Below are positions 22,536 to 36,751 of a stretch of 64,000 nucleotides of DNA, in pieces (positions within the stretch are counted from its first letter, which is position 1; every line of letters begins with the position of its first letter). The position numbers and the translations under genes were made by a program. Origin of the DNA: Prevotella sp. GTDB taxonomy: Bacteria > Bacteroidota > Bacteroidia > Bacteroidales > Bacteroidaceae. Where the stretch lies: assembly GCA_017619375.1 (NCBI GenBank), contig JAFZSL010000068.1:24011-88010 (forward strand), read 5' to 3'. The notes below the pieces were generated by a model. That model saw nothing but the letters and a program-made list of their open reading frames with translations, ran no database searches and was not told the DNA's origin.

Positions 22536-22982
22536 CTAAAAATATAGTCTTGCCAGAACTACTGTGACGAGGATGTGCAGCAGTTGGTCAAATCCATACA
22601 CCATCCAGTTGGGCTTGCGCCTGGTGTCTCTCAACGCTTCATACATGACGGAGAGTTTGCTCTTGATGGTGTCGATGACGAAATGCGAACCCAACTCGAT
22701 GAGGAAGGCCGCCACGCAGCCTTGCAGTGACACGCTAAACAGTGCCAGAACCATCGTCATCAGCACGGCATGCACGCCGGCGTGAAGGAGTATCGGCAAG
22801 TATTCCTTACCACTCGACTTCGCCCGTATCATCGACTTGGTGGTGAGACAAAAGTCGCCAAGGTAATGACACAGCAACAATGCCGACAAAACCAGGCTCC
22901 ATTGATGTTGCTCGCTGCCTAAATGTTGACAGGAAGTCAATAAAAGGAAAAGGGGTAAAAACCTAACACCGTTTCTCGTCAT
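22536..22982 (-). CDS. DUF3307 family membrane protein
   Basis: A 148-residue inner-membrane protein. Four hydrophobic segments can be read: an N-terminal FLPLFLLL, LVLSALLLCHYLGDFCLTT, LLHAGVHAVLMTMVLALFSV, and the C-terminal YGFDQLLHILVTVVLARLYF. The H-x-x-G-D-F motif (CHYLGDF), LLHAGVHA and FDQLLH are typical of DUF3307, a family of unknown function. The N-terminal 25 residues look like an extra segment compared with the usual start, but no internal ATG precedes the conserved motif. It converges with the deoxyribosyltransferase gene. Confidence 0.75.
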   Translation of the reverse strand: MTRNGVRFLPLFLLLTSCQHLGSEQHQWSLVLSALLLCHYLGDFCLTTKSMIRAKSSGKEYLPILLHAGVHAVLMTMVLALFSVSLQGCVAAFLIELGSHFVIDTIKSKLSVMYEALRDTRRKPNWMVYGFDQLLHILVTVVLARLYF

Positions 22983-23135: not shown

Positions 23136-23212
23136 AGCCTCGCTGTTTTTTGTTGCGACTCGGCATAGTTCAAACAAGTTTGACTCTGCACTCGCTGCTT
23201 TAAAAATTCACT
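23136..23212. repeat. Dispersed repeat R2, copy 1
   Basis: About 77 bases that can be aligned almost throughout with 63908-63982. Shared landmarks are the CGCTG start, GCGACTCGGCA, an inverted repeat around CAAAC-AAGTTTG and the CTCGCTGCT end. It lies at the 3' end of the lipoprotein gene and overlaps its stop codon, so it would be transcribed as a 3' hairpin. Confidence 0.8.
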
Positions 23213-23972
23213 TCTTTACGGTGAAAGTTTGTCCATCCCAAATCATCTGGAACGATGTGGTGTCGTAGGAGTCCATATCGTTTTCGGTGAAGGTCATGAC
23301 TTCGATGTTCTTGCCTTTGTCGGGAAGGACAACAGAATAGTTTGCAAATGATGCTACGTTCTTTTCCACCAAATCCGTCAACTGTGGTTCCGGGGTCAGC
23401 ATGTCGGTCTCGGGGTCATAGTCATAGAACAGCACCAGTTTCGCATCATCCTCCACATTCTCATGCCCCTCTGTCAGCCAGACAGCAAGCAGTTTATGAC
23501 CATTTTTGCGGTTCCAGTAGCAGCAGTCGGTGTTCCAGTCGAATTGCGACATGGCGCGGCAGGTGACATAGCCGTTGCGCTCCTCGAGGTTGACATGGCA
23601 ACCCGTTTTTTCCTCGTTGTAATTCTGGGGTTGGGTGAGGTATTCATACAAAGCAGCATTCGGCTTGTAGTCCTTGAATTCTCCACAGAAAGCAAAGGCT
23701 AACTGCATGATTCCGACGGGACCGTCGCCAGATCCCACATCGATTTTTTTTGTTTTCCATTCCTTCCTGATTTGGTTGATGACACTCCCGTCATCATTGC
23801 GCTCGTCGATGGACGCTTTCTCATCAACAGTTTTATTCTCACTCTTGGAAGTTGTCTCTGCAATCTGGTCTTTTACGATTTCCTCAGACGCTTTCTCTCC
23901 GCTTTTGTTGCCGCAAGCCCAAATGGCGAGTGCCATGGCCAGGAATGCGATGGTCAATGTGTTCTTTTTCAT
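23208..23972 (-). CDS. Hypothetical lipoprotein
   Basis: A 254-residue protein I do not recognise. From the ATG at 23972 the signal MKKNTLTIAFLAMALAIWA is followed by Cys, a lipoprotein start. The frame extends 16 codons upstream, but the promoter at 23998-24027 rules that out. After a charged, low-complexity linker (KSGEKASEEIVKDQIAETTSKS) comes a globular domain with four Cys and many aromatics (AMSQFDWNTDCCYWNRKNGHKLLAVWL, LVLFYDYDPETDMLTPEP). The gene is divergent from the kinase-WG operon and shares a 158-bp promoter region with it, which may or may not reflect a shared role. Confidence 0.65.
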   Translation of the reverse strand: MKKNTLTIAFLAMALAIWACGNKSGEKASEEIVKDQIAETTSKSENKTVDEKASIDERNDDGSVINQIRKEWKTKKIDVGSGDGPVGIMQLAFAFCGEFKDYKPNAALYEYLTQPQNYNEEKTGCHVNLEERNGYVTCRAMSQFDWNTDCCYWNRKNGHKLLAVWLTEGHENVEDDAKLVLFYDYDPETDMLTPEPQLTDLVEKNVASFANYSVVLPDKGKNIEVMTFTENDMDSYDTTSFQMIWDGQTFTVKK

Positions 23973-23997
23973 TTCTCTCTTATTTGGTTTGGAAATG

Positions 23998-24027
23998 CAA
24001 ATGTAGTGAAAAAATGACATAATGCAA
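23998..24027 (-). promoter_or_regulatory. Promoter of the 23208 lipoprotein gene
   Basis: Minus-strand TTG (24027-24025), 19 bases, TACATTTG (24005-23998). It lies 26 bases upstream of the start at 23972. Confidence 0.65.
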
Positions 24028-24080
24028 TAGGTTTCTCCAAAAACAAGTTTGAAAATGGAAAAAGAAAAACCTCCTCATTC

Positions 24081-24111
24081 TTGGACATTTCGCATAATTG
24101 CCTTATTTTTG
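24081..24111 (+). promoter_or_regulatory. Promoter of the kinase-WG operon
   Basis: TTG (24081-24083), a 20-base spacer and TATTTTTG (24104-24111) match the Bacteroidetes consensus. Transcription would begin a few bases before the ATG at 24131, giving a very short leader. Confidence 0.7.
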
Positions 24112-24130
24112 TGCCAAAATAGTTAAATCC

Positions 24131-25939
24131 ATGCAACATCTTCAGTTAGGCGCCTTTTTGCAAAACGGGAAATACAGGATAGTGAAAGTGCTTGGCCAAG
24201 GTGGTTTCGGCATCACCTACATGGCGGAGCAATACCCGTTGAAGAAAAAGGTTGCCATCAAGGAGTTCTTCATACAAGACTTGTGTTTCCGCGACAACAC
24301 GGCGAACGTGCGCACCCTAACGCAGTCCGACATGGTGGACCGATACCGCCAGAAATTCTTCAAGGAAGCGCAGATCCAGGCACAATTCAACCACCCAAAC
24401 ATTGTCCGGGTGATCGACTTTTTCAAGGAAAACGGCACGGGGTATTATGTGATGGATTATCTGGAAGGGGAGAACCTGGCAGAAATCATTGCGAAAAACG
24501 GACCTTTGTCTGAATCGACTGCGCTGCGATACATCAGGAAGGTGGCTGACGCGCTGGACTACATCCACCAGGCCAAAGTCAATCATCTCGACATCAAGCC
24601 TGCCAACATCGTGGTGTGTCGTGATAATGACGAGCCGGTCATCATCGATTTCGGCGTGTCGAAACAGTATGACGAGCAGAAAGACCAGTCTACAACCACG
24701 CCGCCGGGTGTGAGCAATGGCTATTCGCCCATAGAGCAGTATGAATCGGGAGGTGTCAGCAAGTTCTCACCCCAAGCCGACATCTATGCCTTGGGGGCGA
24801 CGCTTTACAAACTGCTGACAGGGAACACGCCCCCGAAAGCATCCTGTCTGCTCAATGAAGGCCTGCCACCATTACCAAGCCATATCTCCACACAAGTATG
24901 TTGGGCGATAGAGAATGCCATGCAACCCCGCCGATATGACCGCCCCGGGAGCATCAGGGAATTGATGGCGATGCTGCCTGCTGCCGATACGGAAGAAACA
25001 GAAGCGGTTTCTCCAACAATCGACAACGTATATGAAACGCCCATCCCAGTATCAGACGAACCGGAAGAGGTGGTGTATCCCTATGAAGAGATATCCTATG
25101 AAAGGAAACGTCCCTTCCCCTATTTTTGGTTGATTTTCCCGTTGGCGGGCCTTCTCTTGGGAGGATTGGTGATGTATTTTGTCCTGAAAAGCAACTCGTC
25201 TGCTGCAGGGAATGACGGCGATGGCATGGAAAATACTCTTGAGGATGTAAAAGAGGTGGGTAATCCCATTATCGACAACCTTGTCAAGAACATGGTCAAG
25301 GTGGAAGGAGGCACGTTCACCATGGGCGACACTTCGGGGGCTTATGTGGAAAACAATGAATATCCCTTGCATCAAGTGACTCTTTCCTCGTTCCATATCG
25401 GCCGTTACGAAGTGACACAGGAGGAATGGCAAGCGGTGATGGGCAACAATCCCGCCAGTTTCAGTGACCCCAAGCGTCCAGTGGAATTCGTTAGTTGGGA
25501 TGACTGCCAATTGTTTATAAGAAAACTAAACACCTTGACAGGAAAGAAATTCCGTCTGCCTACAGAGGCGGAGTGGGAGTTTGCTGCTAGAGGTGGTGTG
25601 GAAAGTCATGGATACATCTATTCGGGAAACAATGACCTCGGTACCGTGGCATGGTATTCGGCAAATAGTGGCAGCTCCACCCAGGCCGTCGGTCAGAAAC
25701 AACCCAATGAATTGGGGCTGTATGACATGACGGGCAATTTATGGGAATGGTGCAGCGACTGGTATGGAGGGTATGATTCCAACAAGCAGGATAATCCCAC
25801 GGGACCCTCGTCGGGTTCGCAGCGCGTGCTCAGAGGCGGGGGATGGAACGGGGGCGCCAAGAACTGTCGTGTTTCCAATCGTGATAGCCGGTTTCCCGAT
25901 TACAGCAGCGACCGTCTTGGATTGCGCCTTGCACATTAG
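24131..25939 (+). CDS. Transmembrane Ser/Thr protein kinase with C-terminal FGE/SUMF1-like domain
   Basis: A 602-residue, single-pass membrane protein. Residues 15-290 form a PknB-like kinase domain: P-loop GQGGFGITY (22-30), VAIKEF Lys, catalytic loop HLDIKPAN (152-159, Leu in place of the usual Arg), DFG at 173-175 and a Thr-rich activation segment (STTTPPGVSNGYSPIEQY). One hydrophobic helix (about 329-351) follows. The outer part from about 390 is a formylglycine-generating-enzyme-like domain (GGTFTMGDTSG, EVTQEEWQAVMGNNP, FRLPTEAEWEFAARGG, GNLWEWCSDWYGG, RVLRGGGWNGGAKNCR). Of the two FGE catalytic Cys positions only the second appears to be kept, so it may bind rather than oxidise. Two WG-repeat genes follow on the same strand. 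Confidence 0.92.
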   Translation: MQHLQLGAFLQNGKYRIVKVLGQGGFGITYMAEQYPLKKKVAIKEFFIQDLCFRDNTANVRTLTQSDMVDRYRQKFFKEAQIQAQFNHPNIVRVIDFFKENGTGYYVMDYLEGENLAEIIAKNGPLSESTALRYIRKVADALDYIHQAKVNHLDIKPANIVVCRDNDEPVIIDFGVSKQYDEQKDQSTTTPPGVSNGYSPIEQYESGGVSKFSPQADIYALGATLYKLLTGNTPPKASCLLNEGLPPLPSHISTQVCWAIENAMQPRRYDRPGSIRELMAMLPAADTEETEAVSPTIDNVYETPIPVSDEPEEVVYPYEEISYERKRPFPYFWLIFPLAGLLLGGLVMYFVLKSNSSAAGNDGDGMENTLEDVKEVGNPIIDNLVKNMVKVEGGTFTMGDTSGAYVENNEYPLHQVTLSSFHIGRYEVTQEEWQAVMGNNPASFSDPKRPVEFVSWDDCQLFIRKLNTLTGKKFRLPTEAEWEFAARGGVESHGYIYSGNNDLGTVAWYSANSGSSTQAVGQKQPNELGLYDMTGNLWEWCSDWYGGYDSNKQDNPTGPSSGSQRVLRGGGWNGGAKNCRVSNRDSRFPDYSSDRLGLRLAH

Positions 25940-26006
25940 CCACCTGCTATAGATAGTAAGAACATTCTTAATCAATTATCATCAACCTTATAAAAAATGT
26001 AAAACT

Positions 26007-27641
26007 ATGACTGTTTTCAATCGATTCTTGATTTTACTGGGCCTGTTCCTGTCTTTCCATCTCAATGCCTTTTGTCAGAATGATGATGAGGAGGATGAAG
26101 ATGTGAACGCCAAGATTGTCGAGCAACTTCGCCAGAAGTATGATGATGCTGAGTATTTCGAAGATGGCTTCTTTGTGAAGCAAAACGGGCGATGGGAATT
26201 TGCCGATGAAAACGGCAAGGTTCTCACCAATATGCACATAGAGAATGTCGAGAACTATTATTTTTCTGCAGAATTGACCATCAAGGGCAATAAATACGAA
26301 GTCAGTGCCCCATTCGAAGATGGTAAGGTGCTGGTAGGAAGATATGAGCATTTCGCATATATGGACAGTGATGGCGATTTAATCACGCGATTCATCTATG
26401 ATAGATATGGCGAGGAAGTCGATGGCGATCCGGCGGAGATAGAAGCCATCATCAACATCAGCGACCAGATCCTTCGGGTTTACAAAGAGGTGGAACAAGG
26501 CAGTTATTCCTCTGTGAAATCGCTTGAGAAGAGCATAGGTTTCGAACAAGCAGAAAAATTGAGTTCAGAGATAGCAGACTCCTTGTTGGTGCTTTTGTGC
26601 AAGACCTACGACAACAGCCCCAAGAACATCGATATGAAAATCGCCGAGGACTTGTTTGAGGCAACCATAGCGCCTTGTGGACAAGTCGGTTGCGAGGCTG
26701 TGCTTGCCTATTACAAGTCCAATGGTTTGGACCAGAAGAAAAGGCTTGGGTATGTGAGACAATTGGCTGATGACTATGGCCAATACCATGCCTATGAGAT
26801 GATGGGTGATTTTTTTGTCGAGGGTGCCCTTTGCCCTAAAGACATTCAAGGAGCCATCAATTATTATAAGAAGGTGATTGAGGTTGATGCCCAGGATTTT
26901 GGGGAGAGTTCGCGCAAGAAACTGGCAGACCTTTGGAACAAATATGGCACTCAATACGAGAATCTTTTGGGAAAACTCTGTGCGGAAAACGAGTTGGTGG
27001 AATATTTCAATGATGATTATTTCATGTTGACGAATGGCACACAGAAAATGTTGGTGGACACGCTGTGCCAAGAAGTCCTGCCCAAGGGCGAATATGACAT
27101 CTATGGCGTTGTATCGGACTTTTTCATCATTGGTGGCGAGATGTCAGGAGTTCAATTGGTGAAGAAGGGTGGGGTGCCTGTCATCAATCAGAAATTTGAA
27201 GATATCAAGTCAATCAGCGATGATGATGACTTGCAATTTGTGATGAAGAAAGATGAGAAATGGGGATTTTTTGACAAGGATGGCAAGCCCATCACATCGA
27301 TGATCTTCGATGATTATTCATCAGGCTATTCCTCCAATCCTTTTGTTGAACTTAACAAGGAGGAATATTCCATCAACTCGTTGTTTGACCATGGGATGAT
27401 GATTCTGGGCAAGGATGACAAGATGGGATGTATCGACACCAATGGAAATGTCGTCATTCCTTTTGTCTATGAGGGCTTGGCGTTCACACCCAAGGGAAAT
27501 ATCTTGGTCAAGAAAGGTGAGAAAATTGGCGCCATCGATAGAAATGGCAAGGAAATCCTGCCTTGCCAATATGACGACATCGATTTTGACACGGAAGAAG
27601 GGAAATTCAAACTGAAAAAAGTGGAATTCTTCGACTTGTAA
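26007..27641 (+). CDS. Exported WG-repeat protein, paralogue 1
   Basis: A 544-residue protein with a Sec signal (MTVFNRFLILLGLFLSFHLNAFC, then QND). WG-type beta repeats occur at both ends. Near residues 50-75 there is VKQNGRWEFADENGKVL and near 120 YMDSDGDLITRFIYD. From about 360 on are LVKKGGVPVINQKFEDI, VMKKDEKWGFFDKDGKPITSMIFDDY, KMGCIDTNGNVVIPFVYEGL and KIGAIDRNGKEILPCQYDDI. The middle (150-330) is helical and includes a SEL1-like stretch (VEGALCPKDIQGAINYYKKVIE). It lies 67 bp after the kinase gene with no terminator between. It closely resembles the next gene throughout, so the pair arose by tandem duplication. Role unknown; it would meet the kinase's outer domain in the periplasm. Confidence 0.85.
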   Translation: MTVFNRFLILLGLFLSFHLNAFCQNDDEEDEDVNAKIVEQLRQKYDDAEYFEDGFFVKQNGRWEFADENGKVLTNMHIENVENYYFSAELTIKGNKYEVSAPFEDGKVLVGRYEHFAYMDSDGDLITRFIYDRYGEEVDGDPAEIEAIINISDQILRVYKEVEQGSYSSVKSLEKSIGFEQAEKLSSEIADSLLVLLCKTYDNSPKNIDMKIAEDLFEATIAPCGQVGCEAVLAYYKSNGLDQKKRLGYVRQLADDYGQYHAYEMMGDFFVEGALCPKDIQGAINYYKKVIEVDAQDFGESSRKKLADLWNKYGTQYENLLGKLCAENELVEYFNDDYFMLTNGTQKMLVDTLCQEVLPKGEYDIYGVVSDFFIIGGEMSGVQLVKKGGVPVINQKFEDIKSISDDDDLQFVMKKDEKWGFFDKDGKPITSMIFDDYSSGYSSNPFVELNKEEYSINSLFDHGMMILGKDDKMGCIDTNGNVVIPFVYEGLAFTPKGNILVKKGEKIGAIDRNGKEILPCQYDDIDFDTEEGKFKLKKVEFFDL

Positions 27642-27705
27642 CAATAGTAAACACTTTATGCTAAATATTATACAACAAATCCAAACCTTGAAATATTGTA
27701 AGACC

Positions 27706-29334
27706 ATGACTATTTTCAATCGTTTCTTAATCATATTGGGGCTCTTCATGTCATTCCATCTCAATGCCTTCTGCCAGGAAGATGACGAAGAGGATATGAA
27801 CGACAAAATTGCCGAACAACTTCGCCTGATGTATGATGATGTAGCCCATTTCAATGATGTCTTCTTCGTGAAGCAAAACGGGGTGTGGGAATTTGCCAAT
27901 GAGTATGGCAAGAAGCTCACCAACATGCGCATTGAGAACGTGGAGGCTGCGTATGTTTCTGCAGAATTGACCATCAAGGGCAAGAAATACACTGTCTACA
28001 GTCCGTTCGAAGATGACAGGGTGCTTGTGGGAAGATACGGGTATTTTGCCGCAATGGACAAGAATGGCAATGTGGTCACACCCTTCATGTATGATGGCGA
28101 TGGAGACAAGATTGACATCGACCCGGAGGAGGCTGCTGCCATCATCAGCGTCAGCGACCAGGTATTGCAGGTCTACCAAGAAGTGGAGCAAGGCCGATAC
28201 GCCTCGGTGAAGGCCCTTGAAAAGAGCATCAGCCTTGAACAAGCTGAAAAATTCACTTCCGAAGTGGCAGATTCCTTGTTGACGCTCTTGTGCAAGACGT
28301 ATGAAAAAAGCCCCAAGCATGTTGATATGAAAATCGCAGAGAACCTGTTCGAGGCGACCTTGGTTAATTGTGGAGTCCTCGGCAACGATGTCGTGCTTGA
28401 CTATTATGAGACGCATGGCTTGGACAAACAAAAAAGGTTTGATTATGTGAGGGATTTGGTTGACAATTACCCTACGACACGTAGCTATATAATGATGGGT
28501 GATTTCTTGGTCGAGGGTGCCCTTTGTCCCAAAGACATTCAAGGAGCTATCAATAGTTACAAGGCCGTGGTCATGGACGGTTCAGATGAAGGTGGTGTCG
28601 CCCACGACAAATTGGCAGAGTTATGGAAGAAATATGGAACCCAATACGACAATCTGGTGGGAAAACTCTGTGCGGAAAACGAACAGGTGGAATATTTCGA
28701 TGATGAAAACATCATGCTGACCAATGGCAAACAGAGGATGGTGGTCGATGCGCAGCAACAAGTAGTCCTGCCTAAGGGCGATTATGAAATTGCCGGCTAT
28801 AATGGCGACCTTTTCTTCCTTTTGGATGATTCCTCACAATATCAATTGGTTAAGAAGGGGGGCGAACCATTGGTGAATGGGAAGTTTGACGATTATTTCA
28901 TCCTTTCCATGGAGATGGACGAGGCTCAATATGTTTTGAAGAAGAATGGGAAATGGGGCTTCTATGGAACGGATGGAAAGCCTGTCACATCGATGGTCTT
29001 TGATGATTATGAACCTGAAATGTGGGAAGAGCCAAGTCTTGAAATCAATGGGGAGAAATACACCGTCCATTCTTTGTTCAACAGCGGGATGATGATTGTG
29101 GACAAGGAAGATGCATATGGCTGTATCGACACTAATGGGAAAGTGGTTGTTCCCCTTGTCTATGACCAGATGACGTTTACTCCCAAAGGCAACCTTGTGG
29201 TGCTTAAAGGTGGAAAATATGGTGTCATTGACAGAAACGGCAACGAACTCCTGCCTTGCAAATATGACAACATCGAATATGATGAGGATGAAGGAAGGTT
29301 GAAAGCAATCGTGGAAGAATCCATCGACATTTAG
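27706..29334 (+). CDS. Exported WG-repeat protein, paralogue 2
   Basis: A 542-residue paralogue of the preceding protein with the same order: Sec signal (MTIFNRFLIILGLFMSFHLNAFC, then QED), N-terminal WG repeats (VKQNGVWEFANEYGKKL), helical middle with VEGALCPKDIQGAINSYK, and C-terminal WG repeats (LKKNGKWGFYGTDGKPVTSM, AYGCIDTNGKVVVPLVYDQM, KYGVIDRNGNELLPCKYDNI). The frame opens 16 codons earlier, but the ATG at 27706 aligns with the signal peptide start of paralogue 1. Divergence is greatest in the acidic N-terminal linker and just before the last repeats. It ends the operon, 37 bp before a strong hairpin. Confidence 0.85.
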   Translation: MTIFNRFLIILGLFMSFHLNAFCQEDDEEDMNDKIAEQLRLMYDDVAHFNDVFFVKQNGVWEFANEYGKKLTNMRIENVEAAYVSAELTIKGKKYTVYSPFEDDRVLVGRYGYFAAMDKNGNVVTPFMYDGDGDKIDIDPEEAAAIISVSDQVLQVYQEVEQGRYASVKALEKSISLEQAEKFTSEVADSLLTLLCKTYEKSPKHVDMKIAENLFEATLVNCGVLGNDVVLDYYETHGLDKQKRFDYVRDLVDNYPTTRSYIMMGDFLVEGALCPKDIQGAINSYKAVVMDGSDEGGVAHDKLAELWKKYGTQYDNLVGKLCAENEQVEYFDDENIMLTNGKQRMVVDAQQQVVLPKGDYEIAGYNGDLFFLLDDSSQYQLVKKGGEPLVNGKFDDYFILSMEMDEAQYVLKKNGKWGFYGTDGKPVTSMVFDDYEPEMWEEPSLEINGEKYTVHSLFNSGMMIVDKEDAYGCIDTNGKVVVPLVYDQMTFTPKGNLVVLKGGKYGVIDRNGNELLPCKYDNIEYDEDEGRLKAIVEESIDI

Positions 29335-29371
29335 TCGACGATACAGACAAAAGGACGTGATGTAAAAAATT

Positions 29372-29404
29372 CACTCCGTGCAGGCCAATGGCTTGCACGG
29401 AGTG
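29372..29404. terminator. Bidirectional terminator between WG operon and aldose epimerase
   Basis: A perfect 11-bp stem (29372-29382 with 29394-29404) plus an inner GCC/GGC pair is flanked by an A6 run on the left and a short T-run on the right. It can end the kinase-WG operon and the convergent epimerase transcript. Confidence 0.85.
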
Positions 29405-35608: not shown

Positions 35609-36751
35609 ATGGGTTCTGAAAAGTGTTCAAGAATGCGTAAACTGCGCATGTATGTGAAATTGAAAAAATGTCTTGTGAAAGTGTTGGCGGCTGCTATCAT
35701 GTTTTTCATTTGCGTGATGGTCTACTTTGTCGGTCATTGGGGGTATTATGGCATCAGTCAAATCTACCATGTCTACATCAAGGATGATGCGAATGATGCT
35801 TTCAATAGCAGCAAGGCGCTCAATGCGAATTATCGTTTCTATGAAAACGGGGGGCATAGCTATGTGCGGGATGTCCAGACAAGGAAGAAAGTGCTGAAGA
35901 ATATTTGCTGGATGGCAGGTGCGGACAACCTGGAGGATTCGCTCTTATGTTTCGCCAGTGATGGCTATCGGGGCTTTTTCAATAGGAATTCGGGCGAAGT
36001 GTCAATCCCTGCCGACCGATATAGGAAAGCCTGGCTGTTTTCCGACGGGGTGGCGGTTGTCATGGAAAGTGACAGCACGTTGAAATTCATCAATCCGGCG
36101 GGAAAGGTCGTTGCCGACCCGAAGGTCAAGTATGCAACGCTTTCAGCCAATCGTGGATATCTTTTCAAGAATGGCAACTGTCCAGCAAAAGGGGAAAACC
36201 AACTGTGGGGACTGTTGGACAAGAAGGGCGGATGGAGTGTCACTCCTGAATACGATGACATCGTGTTCACAAGAAACAATTGCTTGATATGCTATAAGAA
36301 TGGCAAACAAGGATTGCTGGACGACAAACTGCAACTCGTGGTGAAGCCTGACTACAGAGAGGTCCTGGTCACAGACAAAGGGATAGAGGTGTTGTTGGAG
36401 GACTACACTCGGCAACTGCTTGATTTCAACGGGGAAATCCTGGAACACCACATTTACACGAATATCAGGGAACTTTCCTACAAGTCATCTGTCGACGATG
36501 ATACGTCTGATGGATATGGATACGAACTGTCTCCCTATCTGGAATACCAAACGACCTACACGTCGAGGATGCCTGCCCGGGTGGGACTGATGGACCCCAA
36601 CGGCAACCCCGTGACACCTCCATTGTACACCTCGATAGAGGCTGTCAACGCCAATTGCTTCAGATGTTTCTTCGCCGACATGGACCAAGACTCTGCTGAT
36701 GATGAGGTGGCGTCAATACTCATCAACCAGAAAGGCCAACGGATTGAATAG
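35609..36751 (+). CDS. Membrane-anchored WG-repeat protein
   Basis: A 380-residue protein with a basic N-terminus and one transmembrane helix (LVKVLAAAIMFFICVMVYFVGHW, about residues 22-44) that leaves most of the chain outside the cytoplasm. WG-like beta repeats follow: LLCFASDGYRGFFNRNSGEVSIPADRY, LKFINPAGKVVADPKV, LWGLLDKKGGWSVTPEYDDI, KQGLLDDKLQLVVKPDYREV and RVGLMDPNGNPVTPPLYTSI. It is related in repeat type, not in overall architecture, to the two WG proteins at 26007-29334. It has its own -7 box and is followed by a repeat-rich gap. Function unknown. Confidence 0.78.
   Translation: MGSEKCSRMRKLRMYVKLKKCLVKVLAAAIMFFICVMVYFVGHWGYYGISQIYHVYIKDDANDAFNSSKALNANYRFYENGGHSYVRDVQTRKKVLKNICWMAGADNLEDSLLCFASDGYRGFFNRNSGEVSIPADRYRKAWLFSDGVAVVMESDSTLKFINPAGKVVADPKVKYATLSANRGYLFKNGNCPAKGENQLWGLLDKKGGWSVTPEYDDIVFTRNNCLICYKNGKQGLLDDKLQLVVKPDYREVLVTDKGIEVLLEDYTRQLLDFNGEILEHHIYTNIRELSYKSSVDDDTSDGYGYELSPYLEYQTTYTSRMPARVGLMDPNGNPVTPPLYTSIEAVNANCFRCFFADMDQDSADDEVASILINQKGQRIE

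Follow-up and report, generated by a model that had tools for sequence, protein, structure and literature searches.

A Prevotella gene trio of a kinase with an outer FGE-fold domain and two exported WG-repeat proteins, conserved in three species: a candidate envelope receptor module

Introduction

The closest described relatives of the proteins considered here include the cyanobacterial Ser/Thr kinase-CLec (C-type lectin) variable proteins and their paralogues, which have a putative serine kinase at the N-terminus and a C-type-lectin-fold domain at the C-terminus and which, in the part of the source that deals with them, are hypothesised to be ligand-gated (PMC7517822). We analysed a 64,000-nucleotide stretch of Prevotella sp. 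DNA (the window; assembly GCA_017619375.1), taken from contig C8 of the 4.26 Mb genome G000, in which a kinase with a likewise C-terminal domain of the formylglycine-generating enzyme (FGE) or C-type-lectin fold is followed by the genes of two exported WG-repeat proteins, WG1 and WG2 (together, the trio). Unlike the cyanobacterial proteins as presented in that part of the source, the window kinase has a membrane helix between its two domains and is followed by two WG genes; and whereas many of the former are tied to diversity-generating retroelements (DGRs), no template copy was found for the latter in its own genome assembly.

Protein kinase and C-type-lectin fold likewise occur together in CotH-family kinases with hypervariable C-type lectin domains, although these belong to another kinase family, reside in phages and are called unstudied in the section that reports them (PMC8008677). 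Within Bacteroidota, PorK, GldK and GldJ of the type IX secretion system have an FGE fold without the active-site cysteines, which in PorK is the hub where a periplasmic partner docks; in the portion of the source that covers them, however, they are outer-membrane-anchored ring subunits without a kinase and with PorN as partner (PMC12421860), whereas the candidate partners in the trio are the WG proteins. The solved structure whose sequence best matches the outer domain of the window kinase is that of TvpA of Treponema denticola (PDB 2y3c), named as a hypervariable DGR protein in a passage of PMC7159879. FGE-fold domains preceded by other functional domains, as in the window kinase, also occur in the FGS-domain conflict systems, which the same passage presents as vWA-MoxR ternary systems with FGS almost only cyanobacterial (PMC7159879).

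Results

The trio lies on the forward strand, with 67 bp between the kinase and WG1 genes and 64 bp between WG1 and WG2, and the best kinase start is the ATG at 24131. Open reading frames (ORFs), Pfam and hydropathy confirmed this layout, which an earlier reading from the sequence alone (the sequence-only reading) had described together with the terminator. The features are as follows, with ratios of nonsynonymous to synonymous substitution rates (dN/dS) from the three-species comparison below.

24080..24111, + strand: sigma-ABfr-like promoter CTTG-N20-TATTTTTG, 5' of the kinase gene, one mismatch to TTTG/TAnnTTTG
24131..25939, + strand: Hanks-type Ser/Thr kinase, 602 aa (Pfam, hydropathy; dN/dS 0.16-0.19)
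24173..24838, + strand: kinase domain, best Pfam Pkinase stretch, residues 15-236, with VAIK, HLDIKPAN and DFG
25130..25186, + strand: membrane helix, residues 334-352, mean hydropathy 2.35
25286..25933, + strand: FGE/C-type-lectin-fold outer domain, residues 386-601 (Pfam 2.9e-49; TvpA 2y3c 2.1e-42)
26007..27641, + strand: WG1, exported WG-helix-WG protein, 544 aa (Pfam, AlphaFold2; dN/dS 0.21-0.24)
27706..29334, + strand: WG2, exported WG-helix-WG paralogue, 542 aa (Pfam, alignment; dN/dS 0.19-0.21)
29372..29404, + strand: terminator hairpin, kept in the window, G049 and G259

The three genes stand in identical order in G000, G049 and G259, which represent three species. Both WG genes of G049 adjoin a kinase 78% identical to the window kinase, on a contig that ends near the kinase start, and six upstream flank genes are common in order to the window and G259 (77-98% identical). 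The dN/dS values, from a simple Nei-Gojobori count with synonymous sites near saturation in several pairs, indicate that all three genes are under purifying selection, with the linker at about 0.51. WG1 and WG2, which are 61% identical in alignment, each group with their own orthologue across species; the pair is therefore older than the species split. When WG2 was searched against 148 other genomes, one full-length relative was found, in G049 only, while a profile of the N-terminal and middle regions found 10 of 398 genus genomes at E <= 1e-4, seven of them with clear homologues and three with weak ones. The clear homologues are tandem pairs in G000, G049 and G259 and single genes in G295, G197 and G240, and that of G238 matches mainly in the middle region and is without the N-terminal WG part. 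At the order level (393 genomes, 206 genera), matches outside the window's own genome were short WG-part matches in 3 genomes. The genomes are mostly drafts, with contamination of 7-10% in G049, G259 and G295. The gene order is real, conserved and unusual, but narrow in spread.

Transcription signals were compared with the sigma-ABfr consensus TTTG/TAnnTTTG, as given in the relevant part of PMC7366714. Scanned strictly for this consensus, the whole window yielded 3 matches, 0 of them in the trio. The one-mismatch promoter of the window kinase has a counterpart in G259 (CTTG-N20-TATATTTG), and the upstream sequence of G049 differs. A consensus promoter 5' of WG2 was found in none of the window, G049 and G259. 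WG1 and WG2 look co-transcribed in all three species, and the case for one transcript spanning all three genes is strongest in the window species. A sigma-70 promoter scan was set aside as it does not fit the host phylum.

The kinase matches Pkinase PF00069 at 5e-40, its VAIK, HxDxKPxN and DFG motifs marking it as Hanks-type, and hydropathy gives a single membrane helix, C-terminal to the kinase domain and N-terminal to the FGE domain. The outer domain scores 168.5 bits with FGE-sulfatase PF03781 (cut-off 23.3), and TvpA ranks first among solved structures, ahead of true FGEs at 9.4e-28 and weaker. Located by a motif spacing that we take to be that of FGEs, the catalytic Cys 1 position is occupied by Gly, and the second Cys is kept (RGGGWNGGAKNC). 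We extended this comparison to a pool of 209 loci with 197 distinct kinases, 60 of them with an FGE domain (18 from the window and related-genome loci, 42 from the best 80 matches of a separate search). The kinase loci were picked by eye among the matches listed (G156:C7 and G173:C32 were left out, as were most short-frame FGE-only matches) and ORF calling used a greedy longest-ORF script; given that the pool includes loci chosen for containing a kinase or a WG gene, its frequencies are not unbiased. Only the first cysteine is missing in 36 of the 60 distinct fusions, both are missing in 15 and only the second in 1, while both are kept in 1 and the motif was unmatched in 7. The outer domain is probably a non-enzyme, and calling most of the sampled fusions "formylglycine-generating enzymes" is probably a mistake. 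To our knowledge, kinase-FGE fusions have no established ligand or partner.

WG1 and WG2 each contain four Pfam WG stretches, with PF14903 scores of 67.1 and 76.2 bits against a curated cut-off of 25.6. Both proteins have WG-type beta regions at either end and a helical middle that is weakly Sel1/TPR-like, with AlphaFold2 supporting the architecture for WG1. No Pfam Sel1 match was obtained in the window and 1klx matched weakly at 0.019, while the G240 homologue had a weak Sel1 match (7.4e-5, 23.6 bits) under the cut-off of 30.7. Of the exported WG-SEL1-WG proteins proposed in the sequence-only reading, the WG ends, the helical middle and the export stand, and the SEL1 likeness is weak. A further WG-repeat protein of 380 aa is encoded about 6 kb 3' of the trio (35609-36751, + strand), with an N-terminal stretch that appears hydrophobic by eye.

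WG repeats and kinases also meet elsewhere. Three Ser/Thr kinases of the same family carry WG repeats fused C-terminally (L081:78-2273, L211:7001-9073 and L240:7607-9523); in L211 and L081 a membrane helix separates these repeats from the kinase part. One strand of G240 holds a cluster unrelated to the trio locus, with a kinase without FGE domain, two 8-repeat WG proteins, a DUF3307 protein and a WG-helix-WG protein 28% identical to WG1. At L068, which has no kinase in its stretch, a WG gene is flanked on each side by an FGE gene, and each of the three has a hydrophobic segment at the N-terminus. A Pfam search covered 150 genus genomes, and 39 WG loci were chosen among the matches listed; kinases occur in 4 of these loci where 0.61 would be expected (P 0.0027). 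The expectation comes from PF00069 counts at 1e-10 and rounded genome sizes, the observed kinases come from a custom profile at 1e-5, and two of the four loci (L309, L281) have only a partial kinase match.

A gene for a small membrane protein of the DUF3307 family lies upstream of the trio, and a DUF3307 profile found others in the pooled loci.

22536..22982, - strand: DUF3307 small membrane protein, 148 aa (Pfam PF11750, 2.8e-19)
L236:9220-9711, - strand: DUF3307 at another locus
L237:10117-10413, + strand: DUF3307 at another locus
L233:12744-13178, + strand: DUF3307 at another locus

In all, the profile found five loci in four genomes (the window, G259 twice at L178 and L233, G240 and G238), and every one has a WG-helix-WG or helix-WG gene in its neighbourhood; none was found in the 200 other pooled loci (2145 ORFs of at least 100 aa), a count confined to the pool, nor was one found in the 14-kb stretch of G295. 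DUF3307 adjoins the WG gene in G240 and G238, in the latter as an ORF shorter at the C-terminal end (99 aa); the kinase lies between them in G259, and the kinase and a lipoprotein gene do so in the window. The window and G259 copies represent one site, opposite in orientation to the trio in both. When all available ORFs were compared, the window region had nothing in common with G240 and G238 but DUF3307 and WG-type genes, and with G240 also the kinase; the three sites are therefore unrelated. The recurrence of DUF3307 near WG-helix-WG-type genes at three unrelated sites is new here. DUF3307 homologues in phages amount to 159 phage records, mostly from Salmonella and Escherichia phages (PHROG 2470). 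The lipoprotein-like gene between DUF3307 and the kinase in the window (23208-24020, - strand) has no Pfam family and is absent from that position in G259.

Discussion

Our preferred explanation, which we hold with about even confidence, is that the trio forms an envelope receptor module, in which a kinase with a docking FGE domain would work with exported WG partners. The kinase would sit in the inner membrane, with the Hanks-type catalytic domain predicted in the cytosol and the non-enzymatic FGE/C-type-lectin-fold domain in the periplasm, where the latter could offer a site for docking or for a ligand, a use of the FGE fold with a parallel in the type IX secretion protein PorK. WG1 and WG2, as exported beta/alpha-solenoid proteins, would be co-receptors or scaffolds for the kinase outside the membrane and may connect it with a ligand in the envelope; DUF3307 may take part as well. 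The kinase would then be ligand-gated or partner-gated. The retention of the trio as a unit under purifying selection in three species supports such a module, and the WG-kinase fusions and the G240 kinase cluster agree with a place for WG proteins on the sensing side of the kinase. The sequence-only reading had also considered the WG proteins as possible substrates of the kinase's outer domain, which is unlikely because the kinase domain is predicted to be cytosolic and the WG proteins exported.

Several observations weigh against a kinase-centred module. A perfect TTTG-N20-TATTTTTG lies 5' of WG1 in both G049 and G259 and is lacking in the window; the WG pair may therefore be expressed apart from the kinase in these two relatives, and the single promoter proposed earlier holds best for the window species. 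WG homologues occur without a kinase in the stretches examined of G295 (14 kb), G197 (a contig of 5.9 kb) and G238. The L240 kinase-WG fusion has no membrane helix by hydropathy, and its WG part may therefore be cytosolic. WG genes are common (88 of 150 genus genomes), and 35 of the 39 WG loci lack a kinase. Finally, the WG pair follows 3 of the 60 kinase-FGE fusions, all in one orthologous group, and the remaining 57 show no WG gene among the first five available ORFs downstream on the same strand. If the count is restricted to the 47 fusions whose downstream sequence reaches 2 kb, 44 show none; the sequence is shorter in the other 13. Most sampled kinases of the broad family are thus without WG neighbours, an outcome that the sequence-only reading had taken as counting against a new system, and because of it a general kinase-FGE/WG system is not supported. 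What remains of that proposal is a conserved unit, with WG-kinase fusions and the G240 cluster in its favour and the 57 fusions and the promoter before WG1 against it. Given that most related kinases have other neighbours, the trio seems to be a local, new version of the established receptor design of kinase plus FGE/CLec-fold domain, and not a new system of wide distribution.

The main rival takes the WG pair as a separate envelope module with DUF3307 as recurrent partner, the kinase being a lineage-specific neighbour and no physical partner. We consider this rather unlikely, although several observations speak for it: G049 and G259 have the promoter 5' of WG1, and none was found between the two WG genes; DUF3307 accompanies WG-type genes in four genomes, one of which, G238, has no kinase in the stretch examined; and the WG genes of G295 and G197 likewise stand without one. 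Against it stand the same gene order in three species, the WG-helix-WG gene in the separate G240 kinase cluster, the fusion of WG repeats to kinases and the opposite orientation of DUF3307 to the trio in the window and G259.

A second alternative takes the trio as part of an anti-phage or inter-bacterial conflict locus, in which the WG proteins would sense and a STAND NTPase and a SIR2-TIR protein would be the effectors. It draws on the flank of the trio in the relatives, where the following genes were found.

L024:827-5902, L273:17732-19999 and L233:1-2748: nSTAND1 NTPase with a membrane helix beside SIR2-TIR, in G049 and G259

The nSTAND1 (9.2e-26) and SIR2-TIR (TIR_2 1.4e-22) proteins are convergent to the trio in G049, and homologues of both lie on the same side in G259 with two further genes. 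DUF3307 homologues are phage genes, and FGE-fold domains are known in conflict systems, as part of PMC7159879 relates. We nevertheless judge a conflict role improbable. In the window an aldose epimerase gene follows the trio, and the nSTAND1 protein of G049 had no match in the window's genome, where the SIR2-TIR protein was not searched. PADLOC gave no full-length defence-system match: the strongest matches, those of the kinase (the 25 listed of 36, led by mad6 and PD-T4-6), are confined to its kinase domain, WG1 had one match at E 0.029 and WG2 none. A search of viral contigs with patterns of low sensitivity confirmed no relative of the WG pair. Of the envelope-sensing or conflict system suggested by the sequence-only reading, the conflict part thus rests on the nSTAND1 and SIR2-TIR genes beside the trio in two of three species. 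A second kinase is encoded beyond this pair in G259 (L273:15837-17510).

An active formylglycine-generating or other oxidase modifying the WG proteins, a catalytic role that the sequence-only reading had allowed, is suggested by the strong FGE-sulfatase match but is disfavoured because one catalytic cysteine is missing, and with both cysteines in one sampled fusion and TvpA ahead of true FGEs as nearest structure we regard it as highly improbable. Equally hard to credit is a DGR target as outer domain: the closest solved relative, TvpA, is a DGR variable protein and cyanobacterial kinase-CLec proteins are described as DGR targets in the part of PMC7517822 concerned, but the kinase 3' end matches only itself and stretches of 24 and 19 bp in its own genome assembly, where a reverse transcriptase was not searched, and its last 40 residues are conserved among the three species (dN/dS about 0.1).

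Returning to the receptor module, we tentatively suggest that the trio may belong to a previously undescribed Bacteroidales envelope-signalling kit, in which a Hanks kinase would read the periplasm via exchangeable sensors, namely an FGE or WG domain fused to it or WG-helix-WG adaptors that are exported; these adaptors would work with DUF3307. If true, this would give DUF3307, a protein of unknown function, a functional context. For one kinase-FGE fusion, the conserved trio, with its pair of exported candidate partners and the recurrent DUF3307 next to it, provides a small set of genes that can be tested. Some Prevotella metagenome-assembled genomes show expansions of kinase and FGE domains, with 40 matches to the kinase protein in G049 and 30 in G259 (both 7-10% contaminated) and 4 in the window genome. 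Among the other kinase loci, L240:7607-17000 has kinases with PP2C and caspase-domain proteins, the kinase of L071 adjoins seven FGE genes in a row, and FHA-like and caspase-like neighbours, judged by eye, occur at L071 and L054.

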